Part shown: positions 29,157 through 43,916 of the stretch, piece by piece
How positions within the stretch are numbered: position 1 is the first letter of the stretch
Layout: every line of letters starts with the position of its first letter
From: Winogradskya humida
GTDB taxonomy: Bacteria; Actinomycetota; Actinomycetes; Mycobacteriales; Micromonosporaceae
Length of the DNA stretch: 64,000 nt
Assembly (NCBI RefSeq): GCF_016862215.1
Contig: NZ_BOMN01000130.1
Span: 1 to 64,000 of the forward strand
Reading direction: 5' to 3'
Position numbers and translations under genes: made by a program
The notes under the pieces: model-generated
Database searches by the model: none
Told to the model about the DNA's origin: nothing
Seen by the model: the letters and a program-made list of their open reading frames with translations, nothing else

Positions 29157-29858
29157 ATGCAGATCAGCGGAGCAACCATCCTCGTCACCGGCGCCAACCG
29201 AGGCCTCGGCCGCCAGTTCACCCAGTCCCTCCTCGACCGAGGGGCAGCCAAGGTCTACGCAACGGCCCGCCGCGCCTCCAGCATCGACATCCCCGGCGTA
29301 ACGCCCCTCGAACTCGACATCACCGACCAGGCTTCCATCGCCGCAGCAGCCCTCGCCGCCCCCGACGTCACCATCCTGATCAACAACGCGGGCATCTCCA
29401 CCGGCGTCAGCCTCGTCACGGGAGACCTGAACGACATCCGCCGGGAACTGGACACCCACTTCTGGGGCACCCTCAACATGATCCGAGCCTTCGCCCCGCA
29501 ACTCGCAGGCGGCGCGATCCTCAACGTGCTGTCGGCGCTGTCCTGGTTCGCGTACGACGGCTCGAACGCCTACGCGGCGGCCAAGGCAGCGGCCTGGAAC
29601 ATGACCAACGGCGTCCGCCTCGAGCTGGCCGCCCAGAACACCCTGGTCACCGGCCTCTTCCTCGGCGCCGCCGACACCGACATGGCCGCCTTCTACGACG
29701 GCCCCAAGGTCGCCCCCACCACGGTGGTGGCCGCCGGCCTCGACGCCCTGGAGGCCGGGAAACTGGAGGCTCTCGCCGACGACTGGAGCGCGATGGTCAA
29801 GGCCTCCCTCGCCGCCGACCCCGCCGACTTCTACAAGCAGGCCCTGACCACGAGCTGA
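29157..29858 (+). CDS. Short-chain dehydrogenase/reductase
   Basis: A 233-residue SDR. The cofactor loop is TILVTGANRGLGRQF, suiting NAD(P)H. NNAGIS, the catalytic Ser (NVLSALSWF) and the Tyr-Lys pair (YAAAKAAAWNMTNG) are all present. The ATG at 29157 is the first codon after the predicted MerR-controlled -10 element. Substrate unknown; the divergent MerR gene probably switches it on in response to a small molecule. Confidence 0.92.
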   Translation: MQISGATILVTGANRGLGRQFTQSLLDRGAAKVYATARRASSIDIPGVTPLELDITDQASIAAAALAAPDVTILINNAGISTGVSLVTGDLNDIRRELDTHFWGTLNMIRAFAPQLAGGAILNVLSALSWFAYDGSNAYAAAKAAAWNMTNGVRLELAAQNTLVTGLFLGAADTDMAAFYDGPKVAPTTVVAAGLDALEAGKLEALADDWSAMVKASLAADPADFYKQALTTS

Positions 29859-29944
29859 CAGCGCGGCTGAGCTGCGGCTTTACGGTGGGGGGTATACCGA
29901 TTTCGCGTCCGGGTGGGTGTCGGATACTATTGTCCAGCACGCAT

Positions 29945-30018
<74 letters not shown>

Positions 30019-30034
30019 CCGAGAAGGTGCAGGT

Positions 30035-30069
30035 CAGGCCCGGTTCTCCATCACGGAGGACCGGGCCTG
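30035..30069 (+). terminator. Terminator downstream of tRNA-Pro
   Basis: CAGGCCCGGT (30035-30044) pairs perfectly with ACCGGGCCTG (30060-30069), extended by TCTCC/GGAGG around an ATCAC loop. There is no clear T run. A similar hairpin follows the other att copy at 35914. The rest of 30070-30478 holds no gene that I can support. Confidence 0.7.
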
Positions 30070-30478: not shown

Positions 30479-31045
30479 ATGTCGGCGCCTCCTGGAGCTC
30501 AGTCGAGTAGGAATGCGGCAATCCGAGGACTTCACTCCAAGCGGACCACTGATTTCATGGAGCAGCTACAGCTGAGCTATATCCGGGCGATTGCTGCTGC
30601 GGCGGGATGTGTTGTTACTCAGCCGGAAATCGATGACGGAATAGATATTGAACTCCGGCAACGACATTCGGCGCATGTGAATTTCACAGACAATACTGCA
30701 CGGCTAGAAATTCAGCTTAAATCTACCGCTAGCCAAGCCAACATTTCGGAAAAAGAAATTTCGACGAAAATGCGCCGCGATCGTTTTGATTATTACGCCG
30801 CGCCAGCGCCGTTGAGCGTCCACAAAATTGTCGTGATCATGAAGCAGCCCGTAGATCCAGCGCACTGGACCTATGTTCGCAAAAAGGGTCTAACTCTCCA
30901 CCATGCGTGTTACTGGGTGAACCTTTCGGGTGAAACCTCCTCAGCTTCTGGTTATGTCGCAGTCAACGCGCCTCTTACCCAGGTCTTTGATGACATTGCG
31001 CTCTGTGCGATGATGGAGAGAATCGGGAAAGGGGAAGCGCCATGA
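30479..31045 (+). CDS. DUF4365-like putative PD-(D/E)XK nuclease
   Basis: A 188-residue protein. The core CVVTQPEIDDGIDIELRQ followed by ARLEIQLKSTASQ resembles the DUF4365 family, where an Asp strand and an (E/Q)-x-K strand form a restriction-nuclease-like active site: candidate residues are the Asp in DDGID and E-I-Q-L-K. ATG 30479 lacks a clear ribosome site; TATCCT lies seven bases ahead of it, so the mRNA may be leaderless. Met27 (30557) is an alternative. One counted 60-base stretch (30661-30720) is 43% G+C, against roughly 70% for neighbouring genes, so it was acquired. It overlaps the next gene by ATGA. Likely a nucleic-acid-targeting cassette, but no function is shown. Confidence 0.8.
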   Translation: MSAPPGAQSSRNAAIRGLHSKRTTDFMEQLQLSYIRAIAAAAGCVVTQPEIDDGIDIELRQRHSAHVNFTDNTARLEIQLKSTASQANISEKEISTKMRRDRFDYYAAPAPLSVHKIVVIMKQPVDPAHWTYVRKKGLTLHHACYWVNLSGETSSASGYVAVNAPLTQVFDDIALCAMMERIGKGEAP

Positions 31046-32265
31046 GTGACTGGCAGTCCCCGGCCGATTTTGATACTGGCAGTGACGTGCTACTTGCGGA
31101 GCGTATTACGGCTCTTCTGAGGCACTTCGATTGGACGCCAGTCTCGCGGGAGCCCGGGTTGTACGAAGTTTGGCGCCCGGACGAAGATGAAGATGAGGGT
31201 GACGCAGAGCTACTTATTCCCCTCGACCCAAGTCGAAATGATTACCTGAGTCTCGTGACTAAGGCTCAGCGTCGAATATATAGCCAGTATGGCCGTGAGG
31301 CTCGCAAGCTTTCCCAAACATTGGAGATGCGAGCTTCTTCTTCGCTTGAGGCAACGCGATGGAAGAAGTCAACGCCATCCGAAGCTGCGATTATCGCATG
31401 GGAAGATGGTGAGAGGCTCTACGCCTCGGCCCGCGCGCAACTTGGAGCCTCGGCAAAGGCTACGCGAGAGGCTCGAAGATACCACGGGAATGCCAGCGCG
31501 TACGTAGCGAAGCGTTTTCTTGAGAAAAGCTTTATGGGTCAAACTGAAGTCGGTAGCTTCGTAATCACCGCACTTACACCGGCGCGACAAATTTTCCCGG
31601 CGAGCCGGTACTTTGAAGAAAGCCTTCTCAGTGAAGATTACGGCGGAGAATCTTATTCGGGAAGGCAGATTCTAGACACTTTTGAGCGGGCCCTCTCCGT
31701 TACCCGAGAATGCTTGGACGAGTTTCGGCGATCATCTCGCATGGAGGTCTTCCTTGAAGCCGTTCCCCAAGGTGTTTCCTACGAATTTACAAAAGCGCTC
31801 CGGGATCTGGCACAAGGTAGTGAAGCAGCCGTCGAGATAGCACGGTTGTCCAGTGAAGAAGGGCGGATCACCCCAAGGGAGTTTGCATTCACGCCAGCTG
31901 ATGTTCCGGTCTTGGACCGCGCTTCCCATGAGCTTGCGAGAAATCCTGAACCATTGCGGGTGAGTTTGATTGGCGAGGTTACGCTCCTCAGTCGTTCAAC
32001 TGATAGCGGTGATCGAGTTATCCGACTAAATGTTGAAGACGGTGCGGATATTCGGAAAGCTCGTATCCGACTTTCGGCTGAACAATACGAAATTGCTATG
32101 GATGCGCACAGGCAGGAAGCGAGCCTTAAGCTTGATGGAACCCTAGAGAAAGAGGGCCGTATGTTCTGGGTTTACAATCCTTCGAATCTAGAGATTATTG
32201 AAGGTGTGGAAAGCGATTTTATTGCCGAGGAAGTGTTAAATTCTCGACAGGATCCGTTGTTCTGA
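31042..32265 (+). CDS. Unrecognised partner protein of the DUF4365 gene
   Basis: A 407-residue protein that I cannot assign. It has no signal peptide or membrane segment. The N-terminal 60 residues are acidic (VWRPDEDEDEGDAELLIPLD, with SRNDYLSLVTKAQRRI after it). Residues 80-270 are largely helical and charged. The C-terminal 110 residues look beta-rich (LRVSLIGEVTLLSRSTDSGD, KLDGTLEKEGRMFWVYNP), possibly a small barrel. ATG 31042 overlaps the DUF4365 stop by four bases, so the two are made together. A counted 60-base stretch (31261-31320) is 52% G+C, confirming foreign origin. It could be a target-recognition, structural or immunity partner. Confidence 0.85.
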   Translation: MSDWQSPADFDTGSDVLLAERITALLRHFDWTPVSREPGLYEVWRPDEDEDEGDAELLIPLDPSRNDYLSLVTKAQRRIYSQYGREARKLSQTLEMRASSSLEATRWKKSTPSEAAIIAWEDGERLYASARAQLGASAKATREARRYHGNASAYVAKRFLEKSFMGQTEVGSFVITALTPARQIFPASRYFEESLLSEDYGGESYSGRQILDTFERALSVTRECLDEFRRSSRMEVFLEAVPQGVSYEFTKALRDLAQGSEAAVEIARLSSEEGRITPREFAFTPADVPVLDRASHELARNPEPLRVSLIGEVTLLSRSTDSGDRVIRLNVEDGADIRKARIRLSAEQYEIAMDAHRQEASLKLDGTLEKEGRMFWVYNPSNLEIIEGVESDFIAEEVLNSRQDPLF

Positions 32266-32369: not shown

Positions 32370-32534
32370 TTAAGGACTTTGAGTTGCGCGCACATAGGCG
32401 CCCATCCACAGTTCGCTCAAATCATCCATAAGGCGTCGGCGCATGATTGCTGTGGGGTGCGAATAGCGCGCCTGCACTGATCCATCCGTGTGGCCCATGC
32501 GGTCATCTTGTAGTTTCTTCGGAGCGCCATCTCG
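32370..32534 (-). pseudogene. C-terminal remnant of a tyrosine integrase
   Basis: About 54 codons read KKLQDDRMGHTDGSVQARYS, then HPTAIMRRRLMDDLSELW. This matches the last box of phage-type tyrosine recombinases, with the GH motif and the nucleophilic Tyr in ARYSH. The upstream Arg and H-x-x-R boxes are gone: upstream of about 32534 the frame continues in unrelated sequence. It cannot be active. It is probably what is left of the enzyme that inserted the element at tRNA-Pro. Bases 32266-32369 hold nothing further that I can identify. Confidence 0.72.
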
Positions 32535-32733
32535 GCCGGACAACAGCGCGGCACGCTCGGCGAGGAGCGGCGCACCGGCCGATGCTGGAGTGGGTGCCCT
32601 GCCATAGAGATACCTCCGGTGGGAGCGCTCCGGCTTCCGGGATCGCTGGAGGGGGCGGCCGGGTGACTGCGTACATCCGCTTCCGTCGAAGGTTGATCGA
32701 CGAGGTTCAGCAGCCAGTGCGTAGCCTTCGGGC

Positions 32734-33006
32734 GTGGCTGATGACGGGTTCACGATCAAGCTCACCAGAGATCAGGCGCTCGTCCTGTCGGACTGGCTCT
32801 ACGAGATGATGATGAACAGCCCTGAGTTCAACGATCTCGTGAACCAGGACCGCGCGGTGTGGTCGCCGATGTACGCGATCTCCGGAGCGCTGGAGACGTC
32901 ACTCGCCGAGGTCTTCATGCCTGACTACAGCACTCGTCTGGGCGCCGCTCGCGAACGTCTCCTGGACTCCCTGGGTGACGTCGGCAGGCCGCCGGCCGAG
33001 GGGTGA
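32734..33006 (+). CDS. Small hypothetical protein
   Basis: A 90-residue acidic, helical protein (FTIKLTRDQALVLSDWLYEM, then MMNSPEFNDLVNQD). No signal or membrane segment. Start GTG 32734 without a strong ribosome site. Codon use is like the host chromosome rather than the low-G+C cassette. No family recognised. Confidence 0.6.
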   Translation: MADDGFTIKLTRDQALVLSDWLYEMMMNSPEFNDLVNQDRAVWSPMYAISGALETSLAEVFMPDYSTRLGAARERLLDSLGDVGRPPAEG

Positions 33007-33078: not shown

Positions 33079-33603
33079 TTAGTCGTTGGCGGGGTCTTCG
33101 CCTTGGGCGGGGCGGTAGCAGGCGGAGCCGATGATGACGGCGAGTTGCTTCGGTGGGTCGCTGCTGGTGATGGTGGCGTTCAGTCCGTTCTGCGGGTTCC
33201 GGCCGGCGACGGATCCGCCGCCGTCCTTGAAGGTTCGGTTCTCGGTGATGTCCCAGCCTTGGCTCTGCCACGCGTCGTGGATGGCCTGGAGTGCGGCTGC
33301 GTGTTTGTCGGCGACGAGGGGGATTGCGGCGAAGCCGGACAGGTTCCAGCGGCCGTCGTCGGTGGTCTCTCCGTTCGGGCCTTCGCAGGGGGCGCTGCGG
33401 TCCGTGAAGTCTGTGAGCTGACCGCCTGCGGCATCGGCGATTGCTTGGGCCTGGTCGCGTACGGCTGCCGAGACCTCGGCCTTGGGTTTGGCCTGCAACG
33501 TGGCCTCCTTCTCTGCGGGCTGGTCGCTGTTGCTGCACGAGGCAACCAGCATGGACGCGGTGAGAACGCAGGCGGTCAGCAGTCGGATACCGAGGCGAGT
33601 CAT
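33079..33603 (-). CDS. Lipoprotein of unknown function
   Basis: A 174-residue lipoprotein: LLTACVLTASMLVASC carries the lipobox with the Cys at residue 23. The mature part is helical at first (AAVRDQAQAIADAAGGQLTD), then a beta region (WNLSGFAAIPL, QSQGWDITENRTFKDGGGSV) ending in CYRPAQGED. The ATG overlaps the stop of the DUF1023 gene (ATGA), so it is the third gene of a coupled operon. Its role may be tied to the hydrolase at the cell surface. Confidence 0.82.
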   Translation of the reverse strand: MTRLGIRLLTACVLTASMLVASCSNSDQPAEKEATLQAKPKAEVSAAVRDQAQAIADAAGGQLTDFTDRSAPCEGPNGETTDDGRWNLSGFAAIPLVADKHAAALQAIHDAWQSQGWDITENRTFKDGGGSVAGRNPQNGLNATITSSDPPKQLAVIIGSACYRPAQGEDPAND

Positions 33604-35261
33604 GACGGCGCCTTTCCGTAGTCAAGCGCGACGCGGTCGTAGCTACCTACCACGATGGCGGCTTGATTACGCAGGCTTGTGGAGTTCGCGTTCCAGTAGC
33701 CGGAGTGGCCGTGCGTGTCGATGGTCAGCACGTTGCCGCCGAACTCGGGGTAGTGCGGGCCGGGGCCGTGGATGTGTTCGTTCGCCAACTCGCCGATGTC
33801 ATCACCCCAGAACGAGATTTTAGCTGCGGTGTTTTCCGGTCGGGCGACGAAGTTGTCGTCTGCCGCGGCGCCGGCCCACACGTGGTCGGTGGGGACGTTG
33901 AACTCGGAGGCGTTGGTGACGCGCATGCCAGGGCTGCCGACCGCGACGATGTCGTCCACGGCGAGACCGTCACCGTGACTGGCTGCTTCGCCGAGCACGG
34001 TGCTGCCGTAGCTGTGTCCGATCGCGGTGATGTGTGCGGGTCCGGTGCCGTCGTGGGTGGCGTGCAGTCCGTTGACGAAGCCGTCGAGTGCGACGGCGCC
34101 GGCTCGTGATTTGTCGCCGGTAGCGGCGCTGACGATGTCGGTGTTGAGTGACGGGGTGTCGTATCCCAGCCAGCCGATCACAGCCACCTGCTCGTCCGGC
34201 TTGAGGATGCCGGCGGCGGTCTTGATGTCCGCTGAGCGGTTGATGAGACCGCGGATGTCGTCGAGTTCCGTGCCGACGCCGGGCACCAGCACAGCCGTAC
34301 GGTCAGCGGTGTCGGGGTTTCCGATGGACACCGCAGCTTGACCGTCGCCGGTGGGATCTATCGTCAGCAGGAAGTAGCGGTTGGTGTCCGGGCCTTGTTC
34401 TGAGCGTTCCAGCTTGTCGAGCAGCATCAGCGCCCGGTCCTGCTGGGCGTTGTTCTGATCGAGTCGGTTGTTGACGTTGTCGCCGATGTAGTCGCGCAGA
34501 GCGAGACGGTTGGCGAAGTCCCTGTCCCCGGAGGGCATGCCGTCGAGGCTGCCGAGCCGTTCGGGGTAGGCGGTCAGGTACAGCTGCTGCGCCTCGGGGG
34601 AGAGGGTCTTCCACCAGGCGTTGACCTGCCGGGGATCGGTGCCGCCGGCCGGGATCGCAGCCTCGGTCAGTCCCAGGGCGTCAGCGGCGGCGCGGGCATC
34701 GTCCTTGGCGTCGCCGTACTCGTACGGCTCCTGCCCGAACGTTTCGGTGATCAGTTCGCCGAGCGCCCGTGCGCACCGGCTGTCGGCATCGGTGGCCTGA
34801 GTCAGGATGTCAGCGATCTGCTGGGCGTAGTCCCGCGCGACGCTCATGCGCTGCTGGACAAGCAGAGCAGAGTCCGGATCGTGAATTTCCGCGTACGTCA
34901 GCTGGGGCGGGGTGACGCTGCCGTCGTCGCCGATGGCGAAGTCCGCAGCCGCAGCCTGGGCGAGCAGTGCACGAAGGCTACGTTGCGAGGCACGCAGCTC
35001 GTCGGCGGCACCGCTGAGTAACGAGCCGATCGTGCGTGTTTGCATGGCCGCGACCTCGAACTCGTCATCGACCTTGTCGAGCAGCGTAAACGCGGCGTCC
35101 GCAGCCGGGCCGGCCCAGGGCGAAGACCGCAACGGCCCGATCAGGTCCGCCGAGGCGTCACCCGCCAGGTCCTCGACGTGCTTGCCGAACGTGGTCCAGG
35201 CATCCCCGGCGGTATCGAGGCCGTCGAGACGGGCATCGCGAAGCTCGGGCAAGCTCACCAT
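33600..35261 (-). CDS. WXG-like plus DUF1023 alpha/beta hydrolase
   Basis: A 553-residue protein. The first 190 residues are helical and resemble WXG100-type secretion partners (DLIGPLRSSPWAGPAADAAF). The C-terminal DUF1023 hydrolase begins near residue 290 (RYFLLTIDPTGDGQAAVSIG). Its nucleophile elbow is IGHSYGSTVLGEA, the acid is likely in VPTDHVWAGAAADDNF, and a His in IDTHGHSGYW. No classic signal peptide; family members are often linked to type VII secretion. The gene lies five bases after a small WXG-like gene and overlaps the lipoprotein gene. Confidence 0.87.
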   Translation of the reverse strand: MVSLPELRDARLDGLDTAGDAWTTFGKHVEDLAGDASADLIGPLRSSPWAGPAADAAFTLLDKVDDEFEVAAMQTRTIGSLLSGAADELRASQRSLRALLAQAAAADFAIGDDGSVTPPQLTYAEIHDPDSALLVQQRMSVARDYAQQIADILTQATDADSRCARALGELITETFGQEPYEYGDAKDDARAAADALGLTEAAIPAGGTDPRQVNAWWKTLSPEAQQLYLTAYPERLGSLDGMPSGDRDFANRLALRDYIGDNVNNRLDQNNAQQDRALMLLDKLERSEQGPDTNRYFLLTIDPTGDGQAAVSIGNPDTADRTAVLVPGVGTELDDIRGLINRSADIKTAAGILKPDEQVAVIGWLGYDTPSLNTDIVSAATGDKSRAGAVALDGFVNGLHATHDGTGPAHITAIGHSYGSTVLGEAASHGDGLAVDDIVAVGSPGMRVTNASEFNVPTDHVWAGAAADDNFVARPENTAAKISFWGDDIGELANEHIHGPGPHYPEFGGNVLTIDTHGHSGYWNANSTSLRNQAAIVVGSYDRVALDYGKAPS

Positions 35262-35854: not shown

Positions 35855-35890
35855 GGGACGAAGAGGCCGTCGGTTCAAATCCGGCCACCC
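35855..35890 (+). repeat. attR: 36-bp copy of the tRNA-Pro 3' part
   Basis: Identical to 29980-30015. The base after it is T rather than C, giving CACCCTCG instead of CACCCCG, so this end could not complete a proper acceptor stem. The 5' half of the tRNA is absent, so it is not a gene. Confidence 0.9.
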
Positions 35891-35913
35891 TCGACAGATG
35901 TTGCGCCAGGTCG

Positions 35914-35955
35914 GGGCTGGTTCTCCGCAAGGGGGACCGGCCCTGAGCTGTTTTT
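35914..35955 (+). terminator. Terminator just beyond attR
   Basis: GGGCTGGTTCTCC (35914-35926) pairs with GGGGGACCGGCCC (35931-35943) around a GCAA tetraloop, about 13 bp including wobble pairs, and is followed by TTTTT at 35951-35955. This may be the original terminator of the tRNA-Pro gene, displaced by the insertion. Confidence 0.75.
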
Positions 35956-35962
35956 CGAGGGC

Positions 35963-35992
35963 TTGGTCCAAGTCTCCAAATGTTTGGAGCAA
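35963..35992. repeat. TTGCTCCAA-type repeat cluster downstream of fic
   Basis: TTGGTCCAAG (35963-35972), then CTCCAAA-TG-TTTGGAG (35974-35989) extended to TTTGGAGCAA at 35992. The palindrome is the reverse complement of the one at 37623-37638 on the other side of fic. Confidence 0.75.
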
Positions 35993-36018
35993 TTTGGCCG
36001 GGCACCCCCGCAGATGTG

Positions 36019-37371
36019 CTATCTGGTTGCGCTGAGGTCTTTGATGGCGTCGGCGAGGTTGCTCACCGGGGCATAGACGAAGCGCTTGCCGACGCGGCGT
36101 CGTTCCAGCAGGTTTGCCTGTTCGAGGGCCACCAGGTCCTGCCTCGCGGTCTCGCCGGACACGCGATGCGACATCGAGTGCGAGAGAACCGAGTACGTGA
36201 TATCTGGGTGCTTCAGCGAGTTCTGCACGAGGGCGAGCTGCCGGGAGTTGAGGTAGTCAGCCTCGTTGCGGAGCTTGGTGCGAAGCTCCTTGACCTCCGC
36301 CATTTTGCGTGTGAGGTATTGGTTCAGGTGGTCGATGGCGGTGTGGATGACGCCGAGGTGGTAGTCGAAAAAATAGGTCAGGTCGTTGTCGTCCACCTCG
36401 GTGAGCAGGTACGACCTTGCATACTTCGCCTGCGCACCCTTCAGGATCCGGGAAACGGAGATGAACTCCGTGATCCAGAATCCCTGATTGAGCATCGACC
36501 AGTAGAACAGAATGCGCGCTGTTCGGCCGTTGCCGTCCTCGAAAGGGTGCTCGTAGCCCATCATGAAATGGATCGTCAGCGCACGCAGAACTCCGGGAAG
36601 ATATGGCCCGTCGGTGCTGGACTTGGCGTTGGCGAAGTCGCAGAGGGCCTGCATCCGTTCGGGGATCGTCTCTGCGGGTGGCGGAGTGTGGAGAAGTTCT
36701 CCCTGGTCGTCGAAGACTGCGATCCGTGCTTCCGCGGGCGTCTGGAACCTGCCGGCCGACTCGGGGTCGTCGAGTGTGCCTTCCGTGACAATGCGCTGCA
36801 GGTCGCAGATCAGGTCGATGGTGAGCGGTTCATGCCGCAGTTCTCCGACTCGCTCCATCGCGCGGAAGTTGTTCAGAATCATTGTTTCGCTGCGGTCGCG
36901 AGGTGGCCTTCCCGAGCGGATCATTTCCCGTGCCACCCGCCGGGATGTCGAGGCGCCTTCTATTTGGCTGGAGGTCACCGACTCTTCGATGAGGGAATCG
37001 ACGAGATACTGATCTCTGTTGGTGGGGTTGGCAACTTCTTCGTTCAGCCCGATACGGCCACCCGTATTGGTGATGACGAAGTCGACGTTGCGCATCACGT
37101 CATCCGGCAGGCAGTAGTTGAAGAATTTGCCGTGCTCGTCGGCCAGGGGTAGCCGTCGCTGGACCGTCAGCCGGGCGATTTTGGTTGCCGCCCACCACTG
37201 GTCGTGGGTGAGGCCGTTCGGTGGTGTCCGGTGACGCATGGAGTCCCAGTGCAGATATCGGCCCTGAGAAACCCCGTGCGGAAGATCTTGGACGATCTTG
37301 CCGAAGAAGTCTTTGCTCTCCAGGCGCGCGAGTAGCTCGTTCAGCGGCGGTGGAGGCACGGGTATCTGCAT
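36019..37371 (-). CDS. Fic-domain AMPylase-type protein with winged-helix C-terminus
   Basis: A 450-residue Fic protein, a family that attaches AMP or related groups to target proteins. The active-site loop is complete: MGYEHPFEDGNGRTARIL. An N-terminal inhibitory helix motif is present (SSQIEGAST, S-x-x-x-E-G), so activity is probably self-restrained. The last 80 residues form a winged-helix-like domain (VSGETARQDLVALEQANLLE), suggesting DNA binding. ATG 37371 with AGGAG upstream gives a typical start (MQIPVPPPPLNELLARLESK). The frame is open to 37641, but that part is the repeat array. Sampled lines are 53-58% G+C, so it looks acquired. No separate antitoxin gene is seen. Confidence 0.92.
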   Translation of the reverse strand: MQIPVPPPPLNELLARLESKDFFGKIVQDLPHGVSQGRYLHWDSMRHRTPPNGLTHDQWWAATKIARLTVQRRLPLADEHGKFFNYCLPDDVMRNVDFVITNTGGRIGLNEEVANPTNRDQYLVDSLIEESVTSSQIEGASTSRRVAREMIRSGRPPRDRSETMILNNFRAMERVGELRHEPLTIDLICDLQRIVTEGTLDDPESAGRFQTPAEARIAVFDDQGELLHTPPPAETIPERMQALCDFANAKSSTDGPYLPGVLRALTIHFMMGYEHPFEDGNGRTARILFYWSMLNQGFWITEFISVSRILKGAQAKYARSYLLTEVDDNDLTYFFDYHLGVIHTAIDHLNQYLTRKMAEVKELRTKLRNEADYLNSRQLALVQNSLKHPDITYSVLSHSMSHRVSGETARQDLVALEQANLLERRRVGKRFVYAPVSNLADAIKDLSATR

Positions 37372-37455
37372 GTCTCCGAATCTCCTGCTGACTGGTGTCG
37401 GTCGAAGCGAGCTGCGCCCAGAGCCGTTGAAGTCGAACATCGTTCCAGCCACAGC

Positions 37456-37498
37456 TTGCACCAAGTTTGCTCCAAGTTGCTCCAAGTTCTTGGAGCAA
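37456..37498. repeat. 10-bp repeat array upstream of fic, block A
   Basis: TTGCACCAAG (37456-37465), TTGCTCCAAG (37467-37476), TTGCTCCAAG (37477-37486) and the inverted CTTGGAGCAA (37489-37498). The last two form a 22-bp dyad. Spacing of 10-11 bp puts all copies on one face of the helix, as for a cooperatively bound regulator or iterons. It lies 85 bases before the fic start. Confidence 0.85.
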
Positions 37499-37598
37499 AT
37501 GGCTCTGGGATGAGTCGGCGAGTCGCTGACCCCGGCGTCTCGAAGGGCCTTGAGCTGCGGTTCTTCTTGGTGTCCGGCGCTGGTCAGGATGCTGTCGG

Positions 37599-37661
37599 CT
37601 GCTCCAAATTTGCTCCAAGTTTCTCCAAACATTTGGAGCAAGTGGCTGGGAGTTGGAGCAA
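37599..37661. repeat. 10-bp repeat array upstream of fic, block B
   Basis: Copies at 37599-37608 (CTGCTCCAAA), 37610-37619 (TTGCTCCAAG), 37620-37629 (TTTCTCCAAA), then inverted at 37632-37641 (TTTGGAGCAA) and 37653-37661 (TTGGAGCAA). The centre is a CTCCAAA-CA-TTTGGAG palindrome. Bases 37662-37951 hold nothing else I can support. Confidence 0.85.
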
Positions 37662-37951
37662 GGGGCCCGGGTTTCGGGTGGGGCGTGGCAGGTCTGCGAA
37701 GAATTTGGTCCCGGATTTCAGGGGTGTTGACCAGTGACTATGCCGTCGGTGGGCGCGTTGCGCGGGCAGGGTGGGGTTGCATCTAGTCGTGTGCTCGGTA
37801 AGCATTAGACCAGTAGTCACGGGACGACTCAGGTGGCTGCCGGCTAGTGCTCTGCTCGATGACTTTGGGTGGGGCGGGACCGGGCCTCGGAGGGTGAGGG
37901 CTGGATGGCTTGGCGGCGACCTCTACACCCGCGGAGTGGGAGAGAACGGTC

Positions 37952-38206
37952 ATGTGTGAGCCAGGGGGAAGGGTGGAGCGGCCTCGGCGGAGCCTGGGGG
38001 AGGTGAAGGTTCAGGCGGGGGTGGCGAAGTCGGCGCTTGCGGTTGGGGGCGGGTTTGCTGGGACTGCGGCGGCGGCGCTTGTTGCTGCTGTTCAGGCTGG
38101 GATTGGGGATCGGGCGGTTCAGTCGGGGTTGTTTGTGATCTGTGGGATTGCTGGGTTGACGCTGGTTACCGCGGCGGTGATGGTGCGGGGGATTTTCAAG
38201 GTGTGA
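37952..38206 (+). CDS. Small two-helix membrane protein
   Basis: An 84-residue protein with a basic N-terminus (MCEPGGRVERPRRSLGEVKV), a helix ALAVGGGFAGTAAAALVAAV and a second (GLFVICGIAGLTLVTAAVMV). GGGAGAG lies about eight bases before ATG 37952; a start at 37910 is also open. No family recognised. G+C returns to host level here, marking the end of the accessory region. Confidence 0.6.
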   Translation: MCEPGGRVERPRRSLGEVKVQAGVAKSALAVGGGFAGTAAAALVAAVQAGIGDRAVQSGLFVICGIAGLTLVTAAVMVRGIFKV

Positions 38207-38246
38207 GCGGGGGTGGCCCGGGGAGGGGGCGGGCCACCGGAAGGGC

Positions 38247-39140
38247 TCAGCGGGGGATGAGGGTCAGCAGGGAGGCTTCGGGGCGGCAGGCGAAGCGGAT
38301 GGGGGCGGTGGGGTGGGTGCCGAGGCCGGCGGAGACGTGGAGGAAGGCGTTGGAGTCGGGCCAGCGGTGGAGGCCTTTGGCCATGGTTCGGGGGAGGTCG
38401 CAGTTGGTGACCAGGGCGCCGTAGGCGGGGACGCAGACCTGGCCGCCGTGGGTGTGGCCGGCCAGGAGGAGGCCGAAGCCGTCGGCGGCCATGGGGTTGA
38501 GGACGCGGGCGGCGGGGGTGTGGGTGACGCCGATGTGCAGGTCGGTTTCCGGGGAGGCGGGGCCTGCGACCGAGGGGTAGTCGTCGCGGTCGATGTGGGG
38601 GTCGTCGACGCCGGCGAATTCGATGGTGCGGCCGCCTGCTTTGAGGGTGGTGCGGGCGTTGTTGAGGTCGGCCCAGCCCGCGGTTGTCAGGGCGGTCCGG
38701 AGGTCTTCCGAGGGGAGGTCGACGCCCTGGACGTATTCGCCCTTGCCGAAGACGTAGGTCAGGGGGTTCTTCCAGACCGGGCCGCGGTAGTCGTTGGAGC
38801 CGAAGACGAAGACGCCCGGGATTTCCAGCAGCGGGTTCAGGGCGCGCAGGACGCCCGGGACGGCGTCCGGGGAGGCCATGTTGTCGCCGGTGACGACCAC
38901 GAGGTCGGGGTCGGTGCCGGCGAGGGCGGCGACCCAGGCCTGCTTGCGGCGCTGGTCAGGCATCATGTGCAGGTCTGAGATGTGCAGGATGCGCAGGGGC
39001 TCGGCGTCGGGTTCCAGCATCGGGACGTCGAAGCGGCGCAGGGTGAAAAGGTTGCGTTCGACCAGGGCGGCGTACGCGAAAGTGGCGGCGCCGGCGGCGG
39101 TCAGCGTGGCGGCTGCGGTGATAAGGGGGCGCTTGCGCAT
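38247..39140 (-). CDS. Membrane-anchored metallophosphoesterase
   Basis: A 297-residue calcineurin-like phosphoesterase. After a membrane anchor (LITAAATLTAAGAATFAYAA) come the metal-binding motifs in order: LHISDLHMMPD, VVTGDNMAS, VFGSNDYRG, GVTHTPAAR and LAGHTHGGQV. Substrate unknown; related enzymes cut phosphodiesters. ATG 39140 is the natural start; the longer frame runs into yqeY antisense. The neighbour PBP gene matches the order Rv3682-Rv3683 of M. tuberculosis as I recall it. Confidence 0.92.
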   Translation of the reverse strand: MRKRPLITAAATLTAAGAATFAYAALVERNLFTLRRFDVPMLEPDAEPLRILHISDLHMMPDQRRKQAWVAALAGTDPDLVVVTGDNMASPDAVPGVLRALNPLLEIPGVFVFGSNDYRGPVWKNPLTYVFGKGEYVQGVDLPSEDLRTALTTAGWADLNNARTTLKAGGRTIEFAGVDDPHIDRDDYPSVAGPASPETDLHIGVTHTPAARVLNPMAADGFGLLLAGHTHGGQVCVPAYGALVTNCDLPRTMAKGLHRWPDSNAFLHVSAGLGTHPTAPIRFACRPEASLLTLIPR

Positions 39141-39165
39141 GACGGCAAGAGTAGTTTGACCGTCC

Positions 39166-39618
39166 ATGGGAACGCTGAAAGACCGCCTGACCGATGACCT
39201 GCACACCGCGATGAAGGGCCGGGACGAGCTCACCACGTCCACGCTGCGAATGGCGCTTTCCGCTGTCCGCACCGCCGAGGTCTCCGGGAACGCCGCGCGG
39301 GAGTTGTCAGACGACGAGGTGCTTGCCGTCCTGACCAAGGAGGCGAAGAAGCGCCGCGAGGCGGCAACCGCGTTCAAGGACGCCGGCCGGACCGAGCAGG
39401 CTGAGAAGGAGACCGCCGAGGGTGACCTGCTCGCCCACTATCTCCCGGCCCAGCTGACCGATGAGGAGATCGACACCCTGGTTGCCGACGCGCTCACGGC
39501 GGGCGGTTTCACCAGCAAGGCACAGATGGGCCCGGCTATGAAGTCGGCCCAGGCCGCAGTGGCCGGTCGCGCCGAGGGAGGCCGGGTCGCAGCATCAGTA
39601 CGCCGTCAGCTCGGCTGA
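39166..39618 (+). CDS. GatB/YqeY domain protein
   Basis: A 150-residue YqeY-family protein. Features: MGTLKDRLTDDLHTAMKGRD, TLRMALSAVRTAEV, KKRREAATAFKDAGRTEQA, LLAHYLPAQLTDEEI, and the tail GRAEGGRVAASVRRQLG. It resembles the tRNA-binding tail of the GatB amidotransferase, but its own role is uncertain. ATG 39166 is divergent from the metallophosphoesterase by 25 bases. Followed by a bidirectional terminator. Confidence 0.93.
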   Translation: MGTLKDRLTDDLHTAMKGRDELTTSTLRMALSAVRTAEVSGNAARELSDDEVLAVLTKEAKKRREAATAFKDAGRTEQAEKETAEGDLLAHYLPAQLTDEEIDTLVADALTAGGFTSKAQMGPAMKSAQAAVAGRAEGGRVAASVRRQLG

Positions 39619-39635
39619 CGAGTCACGGAGCTGGA

Positions 39636-39673
39636 AAACGGGCGGGCCACCGGTGAAGGTGACCCGCCCGTTT
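39636..39673. terminator. Bidirectional terminator between yqeY and the PBP gene
   Basis: AAACGGGCGGG (39636-39646) pairs perfectly with CCCGCCCGTTT (39663-39673), with an inner CACC/GGTG stem. A and T runs flank both sides, so it can work for both convergent genes. Confidence 0.88.
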
Positions 39674-39690
39674 CGTGGCGTCGGTGCCGA

Positions 39691-42099
39691 CTAACGACGT
39701 GGAGGCTTGGCCGGGTCGTCCGGCTTGTCCTTGTCCTTGTCGTCCTTAGGGTCTTCCTTCTTGCCCTTGCTGATTTCGATGCTGACGAAGCCGTTCTTGA
39801 TGGTCCTGCCGCTGGGGTTGGTGCCCGCGGCTGTGCCCTTGGGGCAGTCGGACTCGACTTCCTGGCCGGTCGTGGCGCTGAAGCCGGCGCTTTCGACGCG
39901 GGACTTGGCGTTGTCGATGGTGGCGCAGGTGACGTCGGGGATCGAGCGCTGGTCGCCGATGGAGATCTTCTTGCTGCCGGGGCGCTTGAACTGGACCTTG
40001 GGCTTGCCCTTCAGGAAGTCCTTCATCGTGTTCCACACCGCGGGGTTGACGATGGAGTGGTCCATGCGGTCCGTGTGGTTCTGCCAGTCCGGGTTGACCA
40101 GGTAGCCCGCGACGGCGAGCGAGCTGCTGCCGATGATCAGGGCGGCGGTCTTGTCGTGGTCGGTGGTGCCGGTCTTGCCGTAGATCGGGTGGTCGATGAT
40201 GCCGTGGGCCTGCGGTGCGGTGCGGCCCTGGCAGTTGCCGAGCTGGGCCGAGTCGCCGACGGGGCAGCGGGCGGCGTCGAGCGCGGCGCGGGCCACGTCG
40301 GGTGAGGTGGCCCGGGTGCAGTGCGGCTTGCCGACGTCGAGTTTGTCGCCGCTGATCGTGGTGATCTGCTCGACCGGGGTCGGGGTGCAGTACATGCCGT
40401 CGCCGGCCAGGGTTGCGTACGCGTTGGCCATGTCGAGCGGCGTTGACGAGGAGACGCCCAGGGTGAACGCGCCCCACTGGTGTGCGGAGGCCTCGTCGTT
40501 GGCGAAGTCGTAGTCCTGCTTGGCGCGGAACTGCACACCGAAGCGTTTGGCGACGTCGACGACCTTCTCGGCGCCGACCCGCTCCTGCAGCGGCACGAAG
40601 TACGTGTTCACTGATGCGCCGAAGCCGGTCCACATGTTGAAGACGCCGGCCTCGCTGGCGGACGCGTTCGACGGGCAGTAGTACTTGCCGTTACAGGTCG
40701 ACGGGCCGGGCGCGACGATGTACTTGGAGATGTACTTCGCCGGGGCGTTGATCGAATACGCCAGGGGGTAGCCGTTCTCGAGTGCCGCCACCATGGTGAA
40801 CATCTTGAACACCGAGCCGGCCTGGTAGCCGTTGATGTCGCCACCACCGCTGAGCAGCGGGTTGGTGGTGTTCGGGTAGGTGCTCTTGATCTTCTTCTTC
40901 GCCTTGGCGGGGTCCGAGGAGATCTTGTTGTTCGCGTCGTCGAGCTTGAACTTACGGTTCGCGGCGAGCGCCCGGACCTTGCCGGTGCCGGGCTGGATGC
41001 CGGCGAGTAGCAGCGCGTTCTTGTTGGTGTCCTTGATCTCGTCGCTGATGTTCGCGCGGGCCGCGTTCTGCGCCTTGATGTCGAGCGAGGTCTGGATGCG
41101 GTAGCCGCCGCCCTTGAGCCGGCGCTCGCGGTCGTACGTGGTGCTGCCGAACTCGTCGCGGCTGAGCCACCAGCGGTAGAAGTAGTCGCAGAAGAAGCCC
41201 CAGCTGTTCGTCTTCACCGAGACGCAGCCGTTGCCGACGTGCTGGACCGTGCGGCTGATCTTGACCGCGATCGCCTTCTGGTAGTCGGCGGGGGTGATGA
41301 AGCCGAGCTCCTGCATGTCGTTCAGCACGTAGTTGCGCCGGTCCAGCGCCTGCGGGTAGCCGCTGGCGGTGGTCGGGTTGAACGCCGTGGGCGCCTTCAC
41401 CATGCTCGCCAGCAGTGCTGCCTCAGCAACCGAGAGATCCTTGGGCTTCTTCTTGAAGTAGACCTGGGAAGCCGCGGCGACGCCGTAGGAGCCGTTTCCG
41501 AAGGGCGCCTGGTTGAGATAGTGCTCCAGGATCTGTCCCTTGGAGAGCTCCTTCTCGACCTGCATGGCGTACTTCATCTCGGTGATCTTGCGCTTGGGGG
41601 TGTCCTTGGTGGCGTCGACGACTTCCTGCGGATTTGTCGCGGAATAGGCCAGCGACATTCGGACGTACTGCATGGTGAGCGTCGAGGCACCCTGCTGGGA
41701 CTTGCCGCTCTTGTTGTTGACGAACGCGCGGGCGACGCCCTTGAGGTCGACGCCGTTGTGTTCGAAGAACTCGTGGTCCTCCGCCGCGACGATCGCGTTC
41801 TGCATGTTCTTCGAGATGTCCTTCAGCGGCACTTCGCTGCGGAACTCGTCATAGAAGACTGCGATCTGCGTCTTGTTGTCAGAAGCGAAGATACGGCTTA
41901 CCTGAGGCGTGTTGGCCGTTTTGAGTTCGCTGGGAAGGCTTGCGAAGGTTTCGCCGCCCGCCTTTGCCGCAAGGCCTGACATCGCCACCGCCGGGAATGC
42001 CGCCGCGGCGACGACAACGCCCGCGAGCAGGCCACAGATCAGCAGCGAGGTCGCATTGGCGAAGATGTTGTGATCGCGTCTGCGCATCCAGGAGGTCAC
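39691..42099 (-). CDS. ponA2: Bifunctional penicillin-binding protein with PASTA domain
   Basis: An 802-residue cell-wall synthase. A membrane anchor (LLICGLLAGVVVAAAAFPAV) is followed by the GT51 glycosyltransferase (IVAAEDHEFFEHNGVD, GASTLTMQYVRM, EKELSKGQILEHYLNQAPFG). The transpeptidase has the catalytic Ser in GSVFKMFT near residue 430, the SVN motif in GASVNTYF, and YGKTGTT near 642. One PASTA domain (ISIGDQRSIPDVTCATIDNA on) and a Lys/Asp-rich tail end the protein. Position beside whiB and the metallophosphoesterase fits mycobacterial ponA2. Confidence 0.95.
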   Translation of the reverse strand: MTSWMRRRDHNIFANATSLLICGLLAGVVVAAAAFPAVAMSGLAAKAGGETFASLPSELKTANTPQVSRIFASDNKTQIAVFYDEFRSEVPLKDISKNMQNAIVAAEDHEFFEHNGVDLKGVARAFVNNKSGKSQQGASTLTMQYVRMSLAYSATNPQEVVDATKDTPKRKITEMKYAMQVEKELSKGQILEHYLNQAPFGNGSYGVAAASQVYFKKKPKDLSVAEAALLASMVKAPTAFNPTTASGYPQALDRRNYVLNDMQELGFITPADYQKAIAVKISRTVQHVGNGCVSVKTNSWGFFCDYFYRWWLSRDEFGSTTYDRERRLKGGGYRIQTSLDIKAQNAARANISDEIKDTNKNALLLAGIQPGTGKVRALAANRKFKLDDANNKISSDPAKAKKKIKSTYPNTTNPLLSGGGDINGYQAGSVFKMFTMVAALENGYPLAYSINAPAKYISKYIVAPGPSTCNGKYYCPSNASASEAGVFNMWTGFGASVNTYFVPLQERVGAEKVVDVAKRFGVQFRAKQDYDFANDEASAHQWGAFTLGVSSSTPLDMANAYATLAGDGMYCTPTPVEQITTISGDKLDVGKPHCTRATSPDVARAALDAARCPVGDSAQLGNCQGRTAPQAHGIIDHPIYGKTGTTDHDKTAALIIGSSSLAVAGYLVNPDWQNHTDRMDHSIVNPAVWNTMKDFLKGKPKVQFKRPGSKKISIGDQRSIPDVTCATIDNAKSRVESAGFSATTGQEVESDCPKGTAAGTNPSGRTIKNGFVSIEISKGKKEDPKDDKDKDKPDDPAKPPRR

Positions 42100-42403
42100 C
42101 TGAGCAGGGTACGCGAAAGGCGCCGATGACCAAGCGTCGAGAAGGTCACGGTTCGCCCAGAATGAGTCTGTACCGCCAGTCGTCAGGTCATCACGATTTC
42201 TGAGAATTCACGGCAACTTTTCTCCGTCCGGTCAGTACGGGATGCCCGGAACTCCCGAGGTATACGTATTTGAGGGACAACGTTGCGTAATCGCCCGACT
42301 ACGGAGCATGATGGTCCGGCGAGCTATCGCACGACGTCTGTACGGCTTGGGGGACATGAGCCAACGGGCGTCAGGGGGTGAATGCAAGGGGGGACGTGAA
42401 CAG
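42100..42403. promoter_or_regulatory. Divergent promoter region, PBP and whiB
   Basis: About 300 bases without a supported gene. The part at 42200-42300 is A+T-rich for this genome and includes GGTATACGTATTTG and a CAACGTTG palindrome (42278-42285), so promoters for one or both genes are likely. No specific operator can be named. Confidence 0.4.
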
Positions 42404-42706
42404 ATGGGGATGATCAGCGACTGGCCCAGCATGGCGGCGTGTCAGAGTGGCGACCCTGACGCGCTTTTCGTGCAGGGCGCCGAGCAGAACGTGGCCAAGA
42501 GAATCTGCCGCAGCTGCCCGGTCCGCTACGAATGCCTCGCGGATGCGCTGGACAACCGGATTGAATTCGGTGTCTGGGGAGGCATGACCGAACGGGAGCG
42601 CCGCGCGCTGCTGCGACGGCACCCGCATGTGGCCAGCTGGCGGAAGATGTTCGAGGCCGCACTGCGCGAGAAGGGCGCAGACAAGGTGTTGGTCTCCACT
42701 CGCTGA
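42404..42706 (+). CDS. whiB4: WhiB-family iron-sulphur regulator
   Basis: A 100-residue WhiB protein. All four cluster Cys are present (SMAACQSGD, RICRSCPVRYECL), followed by the turn motif EFGVWGGMTERERR and a basic tail for DNA or sigma-factor contact. The AAGGGGGGA stretch at 42386-42393 supports ATG 42404; the frame is open back to 42242. Neighbours (PBP and two ArsA-like ATPases) match M. tuberculosis whiB4, which senses redox state. The assignment to that subgroup rests on gene order and sequence feel. Confidence 0.93.
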   Translation: MGMISDWPSMAACQSGDPDALFVQGAEQNVAKRICRSCPVRYECLADALDNRIEFGVWGGMTERERRALLRRHPHVASWRKMFEAALREKGADKVLVSTR

Positions 42707-42707
42707 C

Positions 42708-43916
42708 CTATCCCGCGAGTGCAGTGCCGATCGTTCGCAGCCCGTCGACGTCATGGACATCGGCGGGCTGCGCTGTGACCGCCACCGCCGGGACCTGTGG
42801 GAACGCGTCGGTGAAGCGGGCGGCCACGCGCACCTCGCGCTCGATCTGCCGGAGAAGGCCGGCGTGTACCCGCAGCGCCTCCGCGGTGACCTGCTGGTCT
42901 CCCTCAGTGTCGAGCTCGGCGGCCGCCGCCTCGGCCTCGGCGAGGGAGATCGAGTCGAACGCGACCTCGTGCGTGCGGTTGAGCACCAGACCGGCCAGCG
43001 GCATGCGCTCGGCCACCAGCCGCTCGGCGAAGTAGGCAGCCTCCCGGACGGCGTCCCGCTCCGGGGCCGCGACCAGCAGGAACGCGGTCTGCGGGTCCTG
43101 CAGGATGCGGTAGGTCTCGTCGGCGCGCTGCCGGAAGCCACCGAACATGGAGTCGAGCGCTGCCACGAACCCCGACAGGTCGGTCAGCAACTGGGCGCCG
43201 AGGATCTTCTGCACGGCCCGGGAGAACACCCCGAACGAGGCCGTGACCAGGCTGAACATGCTCCGGCCGCCGCGCGCGGGCGCCATCAGCAGGCGCAGCA
43301 TCCGGCCGTCGAGGAACCGCGACAGCCGTGCGGGGGCGTCGAGGAAGTCGAGCGCCGAGCGCGACGGCGGGGTGTCGACGATGATCAGGTCCCACTCGTC
43401 GGCCGAGCGCAGCTGACCCAGTTTCTCCATGGCCATGTACTCCTGGGTGCCGGAGAACGTGGAGCTCATGGCCTGGTAGAACGGGTTGGCGAAGATCTCC
43501 GCGGCGCGCTGCGGAGAGGTGTGCGTCTGCACGACCTCGTCGAAGGTCCGCTTCATGTCGAGCATCATGGCGTGCAGCTCACCGCCGGTGGCCTCGGTGT
43601 CGATGCCCTTGACCTGCCGCGGCGTGTTGTCCAGCTCGGTCAGGCCCATCGACTGGGCGAGCCGGCGGGCCGGGTCGATGGTCAGCACGACCGTGCGCCG
43701 GCCGTGCACCTCCGCCGCGCGCAGCCCGAGAGCCGCGGCGGTGGTCGTCTTGCCCACGCCGCCGGCGCCGCAGCAGACCACGATGCGGGTGGCCGGGTCG
43801 GCCAGCAGCGCGTCGACGTCCAACAGCGGAGCGGTCTGATCAGCCACGCTTCGAGCGTACTGACTCTTGGCATCCGAAGTGGGGTGGGAGGCTGCGGAGT
43901 GTGGCGGGTCAGACAC
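42708..43916 (-). CDS. ArsA/Get3-like anion-transporting ATPase, second of pair
   Basis: A 402-residue P-loop ATPase. The deviant Walker A is CCGAGGVGKTTTAAALGL, with DPARRLAQSMGL and the Walker B-like IIVDTPPSRSALDFLDAP. No metal-binding Cys triad of arsenite pumps is evident. The GTG at 43916 overlaps the upstream partner by eight bases; GTG 43847 is possible. The pair corresponds to Rv3679-Rv3680, for which redox or membrane-protein handling roles have been proposed. Confidence 0.92.
   Translation of the reverse strand: MSDPPHSAASHPTSDAKSQYARSVADQTAPLLDVDALLADPATRIVVCCGAGGVGKTTTAAALGLRAAEVHGRRTVVLTIDPARRLAQSMGLTELDNTPRQVKGIDTEATGGELHAMMLDMKRTFDEVVQTHTSPQRAAEIFANPFYQAMSSTFSGTQEYMAMEKLGQLRSADEWDLIIVDTPPSRSALDFLDAPARLSRFLDGRMLRLLMAPARGGRSMFSLVTASFGVFSRAVQKILGAQLLTDLSGFVAALDSMFGGFRQRADETYRILQDPQTAFLLVAAPERDAVREAAYFAERLVAERMPLAGLVLNRTHEVAFDSISLAEAEAAAAELDTEGDQQVTAEALRVHAGLLRQIEREVRVAARFTDAFPQVPAVAVTAQPADVHDVDGLRTIGTALAG

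Follow-up and report, generated by a model that had tools for sequence, protein, structure and literature searches.

A divergent PDC-M02 gene pair encoding a DUF4365 nuclease-family protein and a partner with a predicted OB fold in a tRNA-Pro-bounded element of Winogradskya humida

Introduction

Proteins of the DUF4365 family have been assigned by a survey to the Mrr subfamily of PD-(D/E)XK nucleases (PMC6299218). In NbaSPARDA, a SPARDA complex, the catalytic residues of the DUF4365-type DREN domain were identified by cryo-electron microscopy as D41, Q60 and K62; the isolated domain is a monomer with no detectable activity, and it is as a tetramer on an Argonaute filament that it becomes active (PMC12205087). 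Another DUF4365-APAZ protein degrades DNA nonspecifically after its Argonaute finds a target, and its potential active-site residues are Q62 and K64 (PMC10810196). Here we examine two adjacent genes of Winogradskya humida, termed A and B, of which the first encodes a DUF4365 protein. Both lie in a stretch of 64,000 nucleotides (contig NZ_BOMN01000130.1, positions 1 to 64,000; hereafter the window), in an element bounded by a tRNA-Pro gene. To judge from profile matches, the pair almost certainly belongs to PDC-M02, one of the families of PADLOC-DB v2 whose prefix denotes a phage defence candidate (PMC11514479).

Results and discussion

Both genes match PDC-M02 over almost their full length

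The two open reading frames (ORFs) of the locus and the features assigned within them are as follows.

30479..31045, plus strand: gene A, DUF4365 / PDC-M02A, likely nuclease, 188 amino acids (Pfam, PADLOC, and pairing in 51 of 55 loci)
30644..30646, plus strand: codon of Asp56 (GxD), likely catalytic; invariant in alignment A4 and aligned with D41 of the SPARDA DREN domain
30713..30721, plus strand: codons of Gln79-x-Lys81, likely catalytic; aligned with DREN Q60 and K62
31042..32265, plus strand: gene B, PDC-M02B partner, 407 amino acids (PADLOC; AlphaFold2 model with a mean predicted local distance difference test score, pLDDT, of 85.7)
31942..32214, plus strand: predicted OB-fold domain of B, residues 301-391 (AlphaFold2 model, structural alignment and profile match)

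The product of A matches PDC-M02A (PDLC04276; E 5.9e-61) over residues 8-188 of 188, and that of B matches PDC-M02B (PDLC04310; E 8.8e-130) over residues 19-390 of 407, with A preceding B as in other members of this candidate system. The end of A and the start of B share the sequence ATGA, and this overlap makes the two genes neighbours on one strand, the arrangement that, on our own reading, a two-component system calls for. Where the pair differs from other members is in its divergence: B and A share at most 33% and 43% identity, respectively, with any relative fetched, in both cases with locus L115. A first-pass annotation, made from the letters of the window, had put the pair forward as a candidate for an undescribed system; that proposal was ruled out, because PADLOC profile families exist for both components. 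In a literature search whose scope left aside supplements and most subscription journals, no experimental test or mention of the PDC-M02 pair was found.

The second protein had been described as unknown, which holds for Pfam and NCBIfam, where no family was matched, but not for PADLOC, where it has a named family. A Pfam scan of 46 B homologues likewise revealed no widely shared family, the best reaching at most three members at E 2.7e-4. Weak matches to phage families of the PHROG collection (phrog_27905, E 1.3e-11; phrog_27927, E 1.8e-5) were obtained for both A and B.

The base composition of the pair is distinct from that of its surroundings, with 52.4% G+C for A and B together versus 68.2% for the whole window. 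Every 1787-bp stretch that starts outside the region from about 28.7 to 33.5 kb has a G+C content of at least 59.9%. Our ORF calls and recounts bear out the overlapping genes and the 60-base G+C values reported in the first-pass annotation (43.3% at 30661-30720 and 51.7% at 31261-31320), and its figure of near 70% for the surroundings, a fair description, is a little high.

Gene A retains the catalytic residues of DREN nucleases

The assignment of the first protein to DUF4365 had been suggested from the sequence and is confirmed by a match to Pfam PF14280 (E 3.3e-20; 73 bits, against a gathering score of 24.3). Alignment A4, of 40 A proteins, shows D52, D56 and Q79 without variation and K81 with a conservation of at least 90%. 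Of 51 A proteins, 50 have a loose GxD...QxK pattern, the exception being an ORF fragment of 71 amino acids. When a profile of A was compared with the PDB, the sole sequence obtained up to E 1 was 9jsb_D, the DREN-APAZ chain of a SPARDA complex, with an E value of 0.5 that is not significant alone; a search with the sequence of A by itself gave one match (E 0.23), which is unrelated. In the alignment with 9jsb_D, residues D56, Q79 and K81 correspond to D41, Q60 and K62 of the NbaSPARDA DREN domain, and the DDGID and EIQLK strands previously picked out as a possible active site therefore carry residues that align with the catalytic residues of a solved relative. The sequence of A places it in the DUF4365 nuclease family and shows its catalytic residues to be intact, and it is likely to be a DREN-type PD-(D/E)XK nuclease, with the solved DREN domain as the reference for its core fold.

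Gene A thus resembles the DREN components of SPARDA systems (NbaSPARDA, TmuRE-Ago) in its DUF4365 domain, where the D and the Q-x-K residues follow one another in the same order. In contrast to these components, A is a stand-alone domain whose partner has a predicted OB fold. Neither A nor B had any match to Argonaute or APAZ in Pfam or PADLOC, and Pfam gave none for four other ORFs, three of them in the element. Membership of the pair in SPARDA was ruled out on these grounds.

A second DUF4365 domain is present in the source genome (G000:C113:106290-106694, locus L155), where it is part of an open frame of 1263 amino acids.

Gene B encodes a protein with a predicted OB fold

The C-terminal part of B is predicted, in a confident AlphaFold2 model, to adopt an OB fold. 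Residues 301-391 of the model align with SSB, RPA, PriB, RecO and RecG, and they follow the order strand-strand-strand-helix-strand-strand, in keeping with the five strands and the helix between strands 3 and 4 by which we recognized an OB fold. The list of structural alignments was filled by this one domain, and residues 1-300 of B were barely covered. A profile of B also matches DnaE OB domains, with an hhalign probability of 61%, and in 3 of the 12 genomes matched in a profile search with B the match was to such a DnaE domain and not to PDC-M02. Searches of the PDB gave no match with the sequence of B alone, and with its profile only two matches, both unrelated, at E 0.42 and 0.44. Judged from its fold, B may face nucleic acid.

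Among viral structures, Foldseek ranks a phage protein annotated as DUF6575 second for the B model (E 2.1e-7, template modelling (TM) score 0.26-0.28, root-mean-square deviation 15.7). The report of 21 experimentally selected Escherichia coli defence systems (PMC9519451) has DUF6575 in one of them and does not use the term DUF4365 in its main text. The pair differs from this system in that the fold match is loose and that the Pfam scan of the 46 B homologues did not turn up DUF6575; DUF6575 could offer a functional precedent for B as a lead only.

A proposed anti-phage module

We read the pair as a PDC-M02 anti-phage module in which B would sense nucleic acid, or take up a position on it, and switch on a DREN-type nuclease, A; we give this reading a probability of about 0.55. 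The A protein would be a metal-dependent DREN-type PD-(D/E)XK nuclease that is quiet alone, since the isolated DREN domain is reported to be so. Through its OB fold and N-terminal part, B would recognize a form of nucleic acid that appears when a phage or plasmid enters the cell, most likely single-stranded or processed DNA, and would then gather or position A. The activated A protein would cut nucleic acid and thereby stop either the invader or the cell. A nucleic-acid-targeting module with roles split between two genes had been suggested at the outset, and the DUF4365 nuclease residues, the pairing and mobile carriage described below, and the predicted OB fold make one version of it a sensible reading: a nuclease effector with a partner that, because it has a predicted OB fold, may sense or be positioned on nucleic acid.

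Conservation of the pair and phage relatives

Gene A is located directly upstream of B, on the same strand, in 51 of 55 B-containing loci (L032-L046 and L095-L134; loci L001-L031 were examined and stand outside this count). A search for co-occurrence had been named as a check on the first-pass annotation, and by this measure the pair is not rare. In the four remaining loci, L045 has only an ORF of 110 amino acids in place of A, B of L098 begins 188 bases from the end of its contig, and neither L132 nor L133 has an A, their B being shortened. Over the 51 pairs the identities of A and B are correlated (Spearman 0.66, Mantel p 0.001). Plasmids from Methylobacterium, Gluconobacter, Tistrella and Entomospira also carry the pair. 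A and B form a conserved unit of two genes, present in actinomycetes and on plasmids of other phyla.

In genome samples drawn from species collections, 54 of the 394 genomes that represent the class have PDC-M02B, including those of a genus designated g33 that is considered below, as do 18 of 100 relatives, including the genome of origin. A scan of the genome contigs with B alone gave no match.

A similar arrangement exists in Leptospira phage LE1, where LE1-0038 matches A (24% identity, E 4e-4) and is followed by a gene for a protein of 381 amino acids (LE1-0037). The top viral Foldseek match of the B model is an LE1 protein of 381 amino acids (E 1.1e-18, TM score 0.55-0.59), which, judged by length, appears to be LE1-0037. 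The two loci are alike in having an A homologue followed by a gene of B-like fold; they differ in that the LE1 pair is phage-borne and that a tblastn search of phage records with B gave no match at E 1e-3. A scan of IMG/VR with alignment A2 also gave no match, and the phage link of the pair derives from the fold match of B together with the homology of A.

Two Mycobacterium prophage records (MW584173.1 and MW584189.1, positions 446-928) contain a DUF4365-type A homologue with 25% identity (E 4e-6).

These data also bear on a different account, in which the pair is a toxin-antitoxin or addiction module whose nuclease toxin, A, is held inactive by B, so that it mainly stabilizes the element and any defence is a by-product. 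The tight operon with its ATGA overlap, the carriage of the pair by an element and by plasmids, the similar pair in a temperate phage, and the shortened B of the thrS-site loci that lack A (L132, L133) are what such a module might display. We nevertheless consider this account unlikely: B is a large, conserved protein for which an OB fold is predicted, DISARM or restriction loci surround several copies of the pair, and addiction should be superfluous for near-core copies whose catalytic residues are intact.

Defence genes adjoin many relatives of the pair

In the tree of B proteins, the nearest relatives of the window copy are those of L115, L096 and L095. The pair of L095 adjoins hsdM and hsdR of a type I restriction system, and that of L096 adjoins two ORFs:

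8108-9010 of L096, minus strand: match to the PADLOC Argonaute-associated restriction endonuclease (REase) model (E 4.8e-26)
6779-7804 of L096, minus strand: Mrr_cat (E 2.8e-22)

No defence gene was seen in partial scans near the pair of L115, the closest by identity, and L117, which falls in the same clade of seven rows as the window B, has genes for RepSA, FtsK, GntR and an integrase alongside. At greater distance in the set, the pair precedes an SNF2 helicase and a type IIG restriction enzyme in L106 and L114, and one plasmid copy sits among DUF262, Abi and HicA genes.

DISARM systems consist of drmA, drmB, drmC and further drm genes. Several PDC-M02 pairs adjoin genes of this kind: drmA and drmB in L110, L111 and L134; Orf5-like and DrmD-like genes in L099; and, in L122 and L123, the series Orf5-A-B-DrmD on one strand. 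A drmB-like gene lies some kilobases from the pair in L100. The window locus differs from DISARM in that the element contains no ORF of more than 553 amino acids and hence no drmA or drmD, and the pair is also found elsewhere without DISARM; a PADLOC scan confined to A and B, leaving aside the other ORFs of the element, gave no drm match.

In L122 (5478-13690) and L123 (5804-13630), the Orf5/HEC-06-like protein, the pair and DrmD, with a GajB-like UvrD helicase nearby, make up a compact multi-gene defence locus.

We considered 24 actinomycete loci of variable position that have long flanks (L095, L096, L099-L104, L106-L117, L121-L123 and L134). In scans that were partial and partly hand-picked, 11 of them showed defence genes, L117 was associated with a conjugative-type element, and 12 showed neither. 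In a comparison using PADLOC at E 1e-15, 101 neighbours matched 137 models versus 3 models for 112 control proteins, although many of the 137 are related models matching the same few proteins, the commonest matching three members, and the control's three matched one or two members each. The ORFs were picked by a simple script; the neighbours were 101 of 139 (14 of 20 loci) and the controls 112 of 173 proteins (13 of 20 same-genome regions), and the test drew on loci other than L110, L122, L123 and L134. This comparison is a fairer contrast than a separate check with nine queries.

Such neighbours raise the question of whether A and B form an accessory restriction module, working with the helicases and methylases of adjoining DISARM, type I or type IIG systems, with B bringing A to unmodified or processed DNA. 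The Orf5-A-B-DrmD series of L122 and L123 and the drmA and drmB genes beside three pairs would suit this arrangement, which we find doubtful and somewhat less likely than an addiction module, given that no ORF of the window element is large enough for such a helicase and that no such genes were seen, within the parts scanned, at the thrS-linked loci or at 12 of the 24 variable-position loci. On both counts, the pair is probably able to stand alone.

Loci L038 and L103 share seven or eight neighbour genes, and their pairs are placed in separate halves of the B tree, as though different pairs had arrived at a single chromosomal location.

A near-core lineage is linked to thrS

PDC-M02B is present in 89 of 101 genomes of g33, which is probably Streptomyces. 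From genome lists, 29 loci of this genus were picked by choice, and in 16 of them thrS follows downstream in the same orientation:

L097, L098, L105, L118-L120 and L124-L133, thrS on the same strand as the pair: thrS-linked loci

In 15 of these, thrS is at a distance of about 700 bases or less, or the ORF calls overlap; in L119 it is 3.4 kb away. According to best-match lists, the thrS-linked loci have at least four further genes in common with one another. The nine thrS-linked copies included in the B tree form one clade (support 100/100), next to the seven-row clade of the window B in a tree that is midpoint-rooted and thus gives no indication of branching order. The A proteins of this lineage that are included in A4 retain the catalytic residues. 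That the pair serves cellular nucleic-acid maintenance, as a repair or RNA/DNA-processing nuclease with defence neighbours of secondary importance, would accommodate the high frequency in g33, the linkage to thrS and the single clade, but this is the least probable of the accounts considered, in view of the patchy occurrence elsewhere in the class and among relatives and of the defence neighbourhoods.

Several observations weigh against the anti-phage reading. The main point is the thrS-linked lineage itself, which a purely mobile defence system leaves unexplained. Among hand-picked neighbours, 4 of 10 had no PADLOC match at E 1e-5, as did 4 of 10 in a second set; 3 of 10 had none at E 1e-3, where others matched generic models only. 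Finally, the nine-query check took its queries from the test loci, so its outcome of 0 of 20 in controls is biased.

A broader and more tentative proposal, which we regard as possible and clearly less secure than the anti-phage reading itself, is that PDC-M02 is an Argonaute-free counterpart of SPARDA. Here an OB-fold protein would replace guided recognition, sense a general nucleic-acid signature of infection and assemble stand-alone DREN nucleases into an active state, and one lineage would have been domesticated beside thrS to become near-core in a large actinomycete genus. If the proposed mechanism is true, DREN nucleases, which serve SPARDA as collateral nucleases, can also act in the absence of Argonautes when another kind of sensor controls them, and PDC-M02 is a system of two genes that is open to testing and has a clear active site. 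The thrS-linked lineage would make it practicable to study a pair of defence type that has become fixed in a genus.

The pair is carried by a site-specific insertion

The element that carries the pair has the following further features.

29945..30020, plus strand: tRNA-Pro(cgg), integration site (ARAGORN)
29980..30015, plus strand: left attachment repeat, 36 nucleotides, within the tRNA gene (exact direct repeat; junction relative to the empty site of G041)
32397..32528, minus strand: C-terminal remnant of an integrase, about 44 amino acids, in ORF 32370-32765 (integrases of relatives; PHROG)
33079..33603, minus strand: probable lipoprotein, other element cargo (sub-threshold lipoprotein matches only)
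33600..35261, minus strand: Abhydrolase_8 protein, other element cargo (Pfam E 1.8e-37)
35855..35890, plus strand: right attachment repeat, 36 nucleotides (exact direct repeat; junction relative to G041)

The 36 nucleotides repeated exactly at the two ends derive from the 3′ part of the tRNA-Pro gene. In a near relative (G041) the site is empty: an uninterrupted stretch of its DNA aligns at about 95% with window positions 29301-30069 and 35855-43000, and has a single tRNA gene followed by the same Fic gene that lies 3′ of the right repeat in the window. Because G041 has these flanks with a single tRNA and without the insert, the window carries a 5.9-kb site-specific insertion at the 3′ end of tRNA-Pro, in agreement with the tRNA-bounded element of the first-pass annotation. 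From its sequence, the element now appears to retain only a remnant of its integrase, which shares 67-68% identity with residues 455-498 and 478-520 of two integrase ORFs of 521 and 549 amino acids located near tRNA-Pro in relatives, and which matches a PHROG integrase at E 0.028.

A second partial copy of tRNA-Pro(cgg) lies 1.8 to about 28 kb away in 8 of 16 relatives at this site (loci that include L048-L060), a figure that is not a rate, as some relatives were picked for having that copy. Among relatives, tRNA-Pro(cgg) has the look of a hotspot for integration. Just beyond the element, direct and inverted repeats of the type CTCCAAATGTTTGGAG lie on both sides of the Fic-domain gene (36019-37641) and extend into it (window 35974-37647); they are possible operator sites.
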